Notes under the pieces: generated by a model | Seen by the model: the letters and a program-made list of their open reading frames with translations, nothing else | Databases searched by the model: none | Told to the model about the DNA's origin: nothing | Assembly: GCF_027947575.1 (NCBI RefSeq) | Contig: NZ_CP116256.1 | Coordinates: 6,014,001-6,078,000 of the forward strand | Origin: Streptomyces rubrogriseus | Lineage (GTDB): Bacteria > Actinomycetota > Actinomycetes > Streptomycetales > Streptomycetaceae | Direction of reading: 5' to 3' | DNA: 64,000 bases | Made by a program: the position numbers and the translations under genes | Shown: one piece after another, positions 22,732-28,271 of the stretch | Numbering within the stretch: position 1 is the first letter of the stretch | How the letters are laid out: each line of letters opens with the position of its first letter

Positions 22732-24161
22732 CGGTCGTTCTCCCACTCTCCTGCTGCGCGCAGGTGGTTCAGTGCGTACGAGCGCCAGGGGCGCCAGGTG
22801 TCGGGGACGGCGGGGCCGGGCGGGGCGACGTCCGGGTCGCCGAGGGCGCGGGTGCGCACGACGGCGACGGTACGGGCGTCCAGGCCGGGCACGGCGAGCA
22901 GCGCGCGCTCGGCGTCGTCCCGGTCGGCGCCGGGGTCCAGGCGTACGGCGCCGTCGGCGAGGGCGGCGGCGAGCGCGCCCGGGGTGCCGTGCGGCGCGGC
23001 CCCGGCGAGGACGGCCGGTTCGGGGAAGAGGTGGGTGAGGGTGCCGCAGGGCGCGTCGAGCGCCTTGCCATACCGCTGGACGAGCCGCTCGGCCTCCGTG
23101 CGCCCCACCAGGGCGCGCACCGCCAGTTCCTCGGGGTCGGCGGTGCCCGGTGAGCGCAGCCCGGGGCGGGCGGCGACCATGGGGGCGAGCCGGGGGTCGG
23201 CGCCGAGCCGCTCGTCGACGGCGTACGGGTCGGCGTCGAGGTCGAACAGCCGCCGCAGCCGCTGTACGGAGGTGGTCAGGTCGCGCAGGTCGGTGAGGTG
23301 GAGGCGGGCGTCGAGCCAGCCCCCGCTGCCGGTACCCGTCCGGCCCGGCCGTTCCCGGACGGCGACGATCCCGGTGCCGTACGGCAGGCGCAGGGTGCGC
23401 CGGTAGAGGCGGCGGCCGGTCTCACCGCTCACCTCCTCGACGCCGGTGACGGCCTCCCGCTGGAGCAGGTCGAAGACGGGACCGGCCTGGTAGGGGCCGC
23501 GGTGGGCGAGGCGCAGCGGGACGCCGGCCGAGGGGGTGGCCGTGCGCCGGGCGGCCCGGTCGCGGGCCGGGGCGGCGGCGCGCAGCTCGCTCGGGGTGGC
23601 CGCGTACACGGCCCGGATCGTGTCGTTGAACTGCCGCACGCTGGCGAACCCCGACGCGAAGGCGATCTCGGTGACCGGCAGGACGGTGGTCTGCAACAGG
23701 ACCCGCGCGGTGTGCGCCCGCTGGGCGCGGGCGAGGGCCACGGGTCCGGCGCCCACCTCGGCGGTGAGCTGCCGCTGGACCTGGCGGGCGCTGTAGCCGA
23801 GCCGTACGGCGAGTCCGGCGACGCCCTCCCGGTCCACCACGCCGTCGCCGATCAGCCGCATGGCCCGGCCGACGACGTCGGCGCGGACGTTCCAGTCGGC
23901 GGAGCCCGGCACGGCGTCGGGACGGCACCGCCGGCAGGCCCGGAAGCCCGAGCCCTGCGCGGCGGCGGCCGTCGCGAAGAACCGCACGTTGCGCCGCTTC
24001 GGTGTGACGGCGGGGCAGCTGGGCCGGCAGTAGATGCCGGTCGTCTCGACGGCGAAGAAGAACGCGCCGTCGAACCGGGCGTCCCGGCTCCGCACTGCCT
24101 CGTACCGGACGTCCTCGCGAGCGTCCGCGTACTTCGTCGGCTGCACTGTCTGTGGTGTCAC
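22728..24161 (-). CDS. Ada-AlkA fusion regulator, AlkA active-site loop missing
   Basis: 477 residues from GTG 24161. Ada zinc domain (about 10-85) with all four cysteines (YCRPSC and ACRRC), where the first Cys repairs methyl phosphotriesters. AraC helix-turn-helix (about 95-190). AlkA N-terminal and HhH domains (about 205-477). In E. coli AlkA the segment after KDV holds the catalytic Asp (LPDD) and about 26 residues before WKPWRSYAL. Here GDPDVAPPGP runs straight on to TWRPWRSYAL after only 10 residues, and no acid stands at that place. Glycosylase activity is thus doubtful, while methyl sensing and activation of ogt look intact. The ATG at 24212 lacks a ribosome site. Confidence 0.88.
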   Translation of the reverse strand: MTPQTVQPTKYADAREDVRYEAVRSRDARFDGAFFFAVETTGIYCRPSCPAVTPKRRNVRFFATAAAAQGSGFRACRRCRPDAVPGSADWNVRADVVGRAMRLIGDGVVDREGVAGLAVRLGYSARQVQRQLTAEVGAGPVALARAQRAHTARVLLQTTVLPVTEIAFASGFASVRQFNDTIRAVYAATPSELRAAAPARDRAARRTATPSAGVPLRLAHRGPYQAGPVFDLLQREAVTGVEEVSGETGRRLYRRTLRLPYGTGIVAVRERPGRTGTGSGGWLDARLHLTDLRDLTTSVQRLRRLFDLDADPYAVDERLGADPRLAPMVAARPGLRSPGTADPEELAVRALVGRTEAERLVQRYGKALDAPCGTLTHLFPEPAVLAGAAPHGTPGALAAALADGAVRLDPGADRDDAERALLAVPGLDARTVAVVRTRALGDPDVAPPGPAVPDTWRPWRSYALNHLRAAGEWENDR

Positions 24162-24231
24162 GCCGTCCAGTCTCCGCCGGACCGGCGGACCGGGCTGGCG
24201 GAAATCGGACATCGTGTTGGCGGCCGGCGGG

Positions 24232-25332
24232 CTACCTCAGGCCACCCCGCTTGGCCTCCATCGCCGCCTTGCCGATGGCGCCCCGGCGCTTGTACTCCTT
24301 GCGGATCTCGGCCCGCACCCGGGCGTCGGTCTTGGCGACGATGCGCTGGTTCTCCCGCATCAGCTTGCGGTAGCTCTCCAGCCGCCGCTCGGGCAGTTCA
24401 CCGCTGTCGATGGCGGCGAGAACGGCACAGCCCGGCTCGCTCTCGTGGGCGCAGTCGTGGAACCGGCACTCCTCGGCCAGCTCCGCGATCTCGGCGAACA
24501 CCTGGTCCACCCCGTTGCCCGCGTCCCAGAGCCCGACGCCCCGCAGTCCGGGGGTGTCGATCAGCACGCCCCCGCCGGGCATGGCGAGGAGGTTGCGGGT
24601 GGTGGTGGTGTGCCGGCCCTTGCCGTCGACGTCGCGGGTGGCCTGTACGTCCATGGCGTCCTCGCCGAGCAGGGCGTTGGCGAGGGTGGACTTGCCGGCG
24701 CCGGACTGGCCGAGCAGCACGGCGGTGCCGTCGGAGACGACGGCGGCGAGCACGTCGAGCCCCTCGCCCTGCTCGGCGCTGACCGGCAGCACCGGCACGC
24801 CGGGCGCGGCGGTCTCCACGTCCTGGACGAGGTACGCCAGGGTCACCGGGTCGGGCACGAGGTCGGCCTTGGTGAGGACGACCAGGGGCTGGGCCCCGGA
24901 TTCCCAGGCGAGGGCGAGGAACCGTTCGATCCGGGCGAGGTCCAGCTCGACCGCGAGCGACACGGCGACGATGGCGTGGTCGACGTTGGCCGCGAGGATC
25001 TGCCCCTCGGACCGCTTGGACGAGGTGGAGCGCACGAAGGCGGTACGGCGGGGCAGGTACGTGCGTACGTAGCGCGGGTTGCCGTCCGGTTCGACGGCGA
25101 CCCAGTCGCCGGTGCAGACGACCCGCAGCGGGTCGTGCGGCGTGACGAACGCGGTGTCGGCACGCAGGACGCCGTCCGCGGTGACGACGTCGCACTGCCC
25201 GCGGTCGACCCGCACGACCCGGCCGGGCAGCAGCCCTTCGGCGGCGTACGGCGCGAACGCGTCGGCCCAGGCGTCGTCCCAGCCGTAGGAGGACAGGGTG
25301 GAGTAGCTGGAGTTGGAAGACGTGGAAGTCAA
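24232..25332 (-). CDS. rsgA: Ribosome small subunit-dependent GTPase A
   Basis: 366 residues. Circularly permuted GTPase order: LTKAD (G4) at about residue 151, then GQSGAGKSTLANALLG (G1), then DTPGLRG (G3). An N-terminal OB fold precedes it and a C-terminal zinc site follows (CRFHDC and a later GC). RsgA matures the 30S subunit and is GTP-dependent. TTG 25332 follows GAAGGG at 7 bases; the first 20 residues are Ser/Thr-rich. It comes 54 bases after a 23-codon peptide gene and after a radical SAM gene on the same strand, so the three may share a transcript. Streptomyces often has a second rsgA elsewhere. Confidence 0.93.
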   Translation of the reverse strand: MTSTSSNSSYSTLSSYGWDDAWADAFAPYAAEGLLPGRVVRVDRGQCDVVTADGVLRADTAFVTPHDPLRVVCTGDWVAVEPDGNPRYVRTYLPRRTAFVRSTSSKRSEGQILAANVDHAIVAVSLAVELDLARIERFLALAWESGAQPLVVLTKADLVPDPVTLAYLVQDVETAAPGVPVLPVSAEQGEGLDVLAAVVSDGTAVLLGQSGAGKSTLANALLGEDAMDVQATRDVDGKGRHTTTTRNLLAMPGGGVLIDTPGLRGVGLWDAGNGVDQVFAEIAELAEECRFHDCAHESEPGCAVLAAIDSGELPERRLESYRKLMRENQRIVAKTDARVRAEIRKEYKRRGAIGKAAMEAKRGGLR

Positions 25333-25386
25333 GGGGTGACCCTTCAGGGTGCGGCCCCGGCGCGAGGACTCAGGGAGCGGCTGAGA

Positions 25387-25458
25387 TCAGCCGGTGGCCG
25401 CGGAGGTGGACTCGATGGACTCCTGGATGCGGGCAGCGCCCATCACAGTGACAGCCAT
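25387..25458 (-). CDS. Unrecognised 23-residue peptide gene with a perfect ribosome site
   Basis: The peptide starts MAVTVMGAARIQ and ends ESTSAATG. It has no Cys, Trp, Lys or Pro. ATG 25458 is preceded by GAGGAGGTG at an 8-base gap, among the strongest ribosome sites in the window, which argues for real translation. The gene lies 119 bases after the radical SAM stop and 54 bases before the rsgA start, all on the minus strand. Options: a RiPP precursor modified by the radical SAM enzyme, a leader peptide that controls rsgA, or a short regulatory protein. It has no obvious run of regulatory codons and no visible transcription attenuator. I do not recognise a family. Confidence 0.62.
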   Translation of the reverse strand: MAVTVMGAARIQESIESTSAATG

Positions 25459-25577
25459 TGGTCGACACCTCCTCGGAAAAGACCCCTGTCGGCGGCCGCT
25501 GGGGCCGCCGCTCGGACATCGGTCACCTTAGCCGCGCGCCCGAGGACCGCGCCACCTGTTAACCACGAACCGTGCGC

Positions 25578-28271
<2,694 letters not shown>

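Follow-up and report, generated by a model that had tools for sequence, protein, structure and literature searches.

On the minus strand of the Streptomyces rubrogriseus genome, a frame of 23 codons lies between a radical SAM gene and an rsgA gene, and this arrangement raises the question of which of its two neighbours the short frame belongs with. The window analysed here is a stretch of 64,000 nucleotides (contig NZ_CP116256.1, positions 6,014,001 to 6,078,000 of the forward strand), part of an 8.41-Mb single-contig genome, in which the gene coordinates bear out the order radical SAM gene, short frame, rsgA on one strand, as given in a preliminary description of the sequence (Table 1). The same description had placed a ribosome site 8 bases before the ATG; frame and site are both present, with a spacing between GAGGAGGTG and the ATG of 7 bases rather than 8. 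We conclude that the frame, from here on the uORF, belongs with the downstream rsgA gene and not with the upstream radical SAM gene. It is probably the leader peptide of an erm/cat-like, ribosome-mediated translation attenuator of a second rsgA that is activated by WblC/WhiB7.

Table 1. Features of the uORF and rsgA region, in window coordinates (helices and hairpins as predicted)
Feature	Coordinates	Strand	Remarks
Radical SAM gene	26897..25578	-	Upstream of the uORF; 439-aa product
WblC/WhiB7-type box GTTAAC	25558..25563	-	Degenerate, 4/6 to GAAAWY; 3 nt before -35
-35 element TGGCGC	25549..25554	-	Fits TKGMNN
-10 element TAAGGT (TANNNT)	25525..25530	-	18 nt after -35
uORF ribosome site GAGGAGGTG	25466..25474	-	Near-invariant across the leader alignment
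uORF/leader peptide	25387..25458	-	23 codons, product MAVTVMGAARIQESIESTSAATG, then stop
CACCTCC inside the uORF (codons 17-19)	25402..25408	-	Complementary to the uORF ribosome site; one-sided changes only
Helix A 5' arm GCGGCCACCGGC (final four sense codons)	25390..25401	-	Unguided fold
Hairpin C (CTCAG..CTGAG)	25369..25385	-	Between the uORF stop and the helix A 3' arm
Helix A 3' arm GCCGGGGCCGC	25351..25361	-	Precedes the rsgA ribosome site
Helix B, stronger rsgA-site hairpin	25333..25358	-	Inner ACCC-TGAA-GGGT, outer GGGG/CCCC
Weaker rsgA-site hairpin AAGGG-TCAC-CCCTT	25331..25344	-	Minimum-energy fold
rsgA paralogue (WblC-type, SCO6149-like)	24232..25332	-	TTG start at 25332; RsgA GTPase

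The association with rsgA is apparent in a genus sample. A DNA search with the leader in this sample of 199 genomes detected leader DNA in 142, and 130 places were fetched, the window's own among them. At 125 of these the uORF is followed by rsgA; two (L203 and L204) have the uORF without rsgA, and the other three are unrelated short secondary matches without a uORF. Lack of conservation of frame and ribosome site in relatives, which the preliminary description had named as speaking against the gene, was not seen: both are conserved, and their recurrence in front of rsgA at 125 of 130 places points to more than chance. The role that it had held in reserve for the peptide, i.e. a leader peptide for rsgA, is the one supported. 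An RsgA match was present in all 199 genomes, in some of them solely a distant paralogue. We also examined 20 genomes that have a close rsgA but were among the 57 without a hit in the DNA search; the uORF was recognisable in every one, with its usual TGA end in 17 (the altered ends being those of L216, L220 and L231).

The reach of the uORF alone was followed with a sequence-only model built from 29 leaders, at a threshold of E 0.01. In an order sample, 183 of 197 genomes matched. Its same-genus genomes number 181, and the model matched 176 of them, three weakly (1.5e-4 to 3.2e-3). Outside the genus, the model matched one genome of another genus of the same family (E 6e-12) and, weakly, six genomes of another family (3.6e-4 to 5e-3), while in a class sample of 60 genomes four of the same genus matched strongly and two others weakly; the weak matches outside the genus were taken as chance. 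The uORF leader is common to nearly all Streptomyces examined.

Conservation of the frame does not extend to the peptide. The preliminary description had suggested looking for codon-level purifying selection, and the reverse was found: pN/pS of the uORF is 2.09 over codons 2-23 (100 of 129 uORFs, i.e. those having 23 codons), with values of 2.26 for codons 2-12, 1.35 for codons 13-19 and 15.9 for codons 20-23, as against 0.40 for rsgA (25 codons, 118 leaders). Third codon positions are the most conserved in the uORF, and codons ending in T recur at codons 2 and 8 (123 of 129 each) and at codon 4 (84 of 129). These T-ending codons are rare, GCT making up 0.4% of the alanine codons in four genes of the window; they are kept whatever the amino acid, and no helix found accounts for them. 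The uORF ends at its usual stop in 168 of 170 cases (167 TGA and one TAG; exceptions L015 and L194, both with altered ends), while the spacer behind it occurs in every length modulo 3, which argues for translation of the uORF. The constraint acts on the RNA and the reading frame and not on the peptide.

A promoter of the WblC/WhiB7 type lies directly behind the stop of the radical SAM gene. Following the WblC promoter consensus of PMC7157823, we searched 129 non-redundant leaders for a box with at least four of six matches to GAAAWY, 3 nt, TKGM(NN), 16-19 nt and TANNNT, and found it in front of 107, whereas composition shuffles led us to expect 0.15 per set; of the remaining leaders, six have a box with three of six matches and 16 have no such site. 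Transcription is predicted to start near 25518 in the window, by the 7-8 bp rule of PMC7157823, and no standard sigma-70 promoter was found within 25250..25650. The same paper counts the rsgA paralogue SCO6149 as WblC-activated in S. coelicolor and lists it with SCO5211 (RsgA/EngC) in its pairs of such genes and their paralogues, and the rsgA of the window probably corresponds to SCO6149.

Rfam gave nothing up to E 1 within 24000..27500, and the structure of the leader was approached by folding. Folded alone, the leader of the window has a z of -2.34 and forms helix A together with a hairpin behind the rsgA site. An unguided consensus fold of the 129 leaders likewise gave helix A, in which the end of the uORF pairs with GCCGGGGCCRC before the rsgA site, and a second pairing, between CACCUCC of codons 17-19 and the ribosome site of the uORF. 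For covariation we used a structure of 23 pairs, comprising these two elements plus a hairpin in codons 6-10. In this structure 96.8% of cells pair, compared with 38-54% in slid versions, and 18 cells are two-sided, of which 16 belong to helix A (shuffle expectation 7.3, 0/500); since the leaders are related, the shuffle counts in these and the following covariation tests are not probabilities. The number of two-sided pairs (30/500) and the pair types (101/500) were unremarkable against shuffles. Two-sided changes in helix A fall at alignment columns 96/207 (UA 62, UG 53, CG 8), 99/202 (CG 95, UG 27, UA 7) and, with a single case, 98/203.

Further evidence for helix A comes from comparing its arms between leaders: own arms pair at -21.8 kcal/mol and swapped arms at -21.2 kcal/mol (sd 0.10, 0/20000), and L222 and L229, two diverged leaders, carry another arm, which likewise fits the end of their own uORF. 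Redrawing the synonymous codons makes helix A weaker on average (from -21.8 to -16.9), but only three of 129 leaders are in the lowest 5%. Helix A accounts for the conservation of the last uORF codons and the hairpin for that of part of codons 6-10. At the place of hairpin C, other leaders have variable stem-loops by eye.

Two predicted hairpins would compete for the rsgA site. The weaker one extends over the ribosome site into the start codon and is compatible with helix A, and a pyrimidine-TTG stretch resembling its CCCTT arm is found behind the rsgA ribosome site in 110 of 129 leaders. The stronger one, helix B, overlaps the 3' arm of helix A with its outer part, which consists of four pairs only. 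Helix B is absent from the minimum-energy fold of the window's leader, and its covariation is mixed: the score is not above shuffles (118/500), two pairs are two-sided (5/500), and when slid by one column it gains two-sided cells (20 versus 6); alignment column 207 suits both helices. We abandoned an earlier version of our scheme, in which helix A would leave the rsgA site free, as with helix A formed the site is predicted to pair with the CCCTT behind it.

The effect of a ribosome on the uORF was modelled by placing its footprint along the leaders. Moving the footprint from codon 8 to the last uORF codon is predicted to raise the cost of opening the rsgA start by a median of 2.55 kcal/mol; the modelled difference, for native leaders alone, exceeds 0 in 117 of 129 and exceeds 1 in 103 of 129, and a footprint on codon 11 would already add about 1.3 to the opening cost. 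With codon 8 covered, the predicted partner of the rsgA site is the stretch behind it (0.66 in mean probability); with the last codon covered, it is the arm in front (0.62). This modelled shift is weak for the leader of the window itself, the partner behind going from 0.89 to 0.61 and that in front from 0.05 to 0.20. Averaged over the rsgA site, the modelled probability of being unpaired shows no difference, its medians staying near 0.20 wherever on the uORF the ribosome is placed. The site thus appears mostly paired in both modelled states, which would differ in strength.

Taken together, our preferred reading is as follows. With helix A formed, the rsgA site would be hidden by the weaker hairpin with the CCCTT behind it, whereas a ribosome on the end of the uORF would block helix A and so allow the stronger hairpin with the arm in front. 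Ribosomes that reach the end of the uORF would then keep RsgA low, the direction of the effect being one that we infer. If ribosomes were halted near the start of the uORF by a drug or a shortage, or did not load at all, helix A would stay and RsgA may rise. What counts in such a scheme would be the act of translating the uORF, the sequence of the peptide being of little importance.

The modelled opening cost rises, and does not fall, when a ribosome occupies the last codon, and this also bears on translational coupling, in which ribosomes finishing the uORF would open helix A and initiate anew at rsgA, thereby raising RsgA. The uORF is close to rsgA, hairpin C and helix A shorten the path between them, and the uORF of L231 even runs into rsgA; as both modelled states leave the rsgA site mostly paired, an active opener may moreover be needed. 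Set against this, 24-89 nt separate the uORF stop from the ribosome site of rsgA, a spacing that is not fixed and is long for re-initiation; together with the modelled cost this leaves coupling a small chance of being correct.

Returning to the attenuator, the leader might conceivably act as a sensor of the 30S supply and form a feedback loop on ribosome assembly, although we consider this rather unlikely. The uORF ribosome site would be contested by the tail of the 16S rRNA and by its look-alike, the CACCUCC inside the uORF. Were mature 30S subunits scarce, the uORF would remain untranslated, helix A would form and more RsgA, a 30S maturation factor, might be made. The T-ending codons 2, 4 and 8 and a GGGC-NNU-GCCC hairpin may, in that case, tune ribosome pausing with any amino acid.

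Transcription attenuation, whereby translation of the uORF would govern Rho-dependent or intrinsic termination within the leader, seems improbable. A scan for intrinsic terminators alone found no terminator-like site in 25250..25650, and the conserved repeats lie on the rsgA ribosome site itself, pointing to translation; many leaders do have, by eye, a C/T-rich and G-poor stretch after the uORF stop that could load Rho, and ribosome-mediated attenuation is reported for wblC and are5sc in PMC7157823 and PMC12421871.

The uORF attenuators of wblC, are5sc and tiaA come close to the translation attenuator proposed here: according to PMC7157823 and PMC12421871, these too are Streptomyces uORFs in the response to drugs targeting translation, and the rsgA paralogue here is probably in the WblC regulon. 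For them, transcription attenuation with terminator and anti-terminator is described (PMC7157823, PMC12421871), a transcription reporter of tiaA being given as constitutive, whereas in the rsgA leader no terminator-like site was found and the repeats are on the ribosome site. Searches of the open-licence literature gave no description of this rsgA leader; SCO6149 occurs there in PMC7157823 alone, and RsgA does not occur in the main text of PMC12421871.

With regard to mechanism, there is a close likeness to the translational attenuators of ermC and cat, in the short leader peptide and its strong ribosome site, in a gene of an antibiotic response and, as predicted here, in alternative RNA helices and a hidden downstream ribosome site. 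In contrast to these, the target here is a ribosome-assembly GTPase and not a resistance enzyme, the peptide is unconserved as a peptide, the uORF ribosome site can pair with a CACCUCC inside the uORF, and the downstream site is predicted to be mostly paired in both states, stalling being our supposition. If true, the WblC/WhiB7 antibiotic response would be tied to ribosome assembly by a second control at the RNA level, through a directly testable element present in nearly all Streptomyces examined. The uORF, with its third positions more conserved than its amino acids, also illustrates that missing purifying selection does not equal an unused short frame.

The weakest reading, a RiPP precursor or other peptide product modified by the adjoining radical SAM enzyme, which the preliminary description had raised on account of their adjacency in the window, was ruled out on linkage and selection and is extremely improbable: the radical SAM gene is upstream of only six of 125 leaders, the window's own included (at least 516 nt fetched upstream), a separate promoter lies between it and the uORF, and the peptide, which found no match to any family in the family search, has the pN/pS given above. 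Among the best 80 of a longer list of relatives of the radical SAM gene, fetched with flanks of at most 5 kb, uORF and rsgA occur somewhere in the flank at 45 loci, and at ten of these the uORF lies within about 260 nt behind the radical SAM gene; the adjacency in the window and at these ten loci is what speaks for the link. Radical SAM RiPP systems resemble the locus in the small frame beside a radical SAM gene, but here the linkage is unconserved and the peptide without purifying selection. The radical SAM protein itself matches NCBIfam NF045502, a variant radical SAM family (variant_rSAM), and had no relevant match among solved structures. Its cysteines are widely spaced (C-x8-C-x2-C by eye), and other genes sit behind many relatives of its gene.

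A search for paralogous leaders in the window's own genome gave one strong match and no other that was accepted; L237 (E 0.002), considered as a second leader, lies inside rpoC by eye and was treated as chance. Four second copies were examined in other genomes: L246, in the genome that has L247 as its first copy, gave no frame in the pattern search; L250 has a leader and an rsgA-like start, where the frame search gave no full rsgA; L249 is an altered leader with an rsgA fragment downstream by eye; and L248 is followed by rsgA. In L203, of 1301 bases, an intact uORF precedes a LysR-type regulator by eye, in a genome which also has a leader-rsgA pair. Finally, L231 (genome G018) has apparently lost helix A and the spacer, and its uORF frame continues into rsgA.
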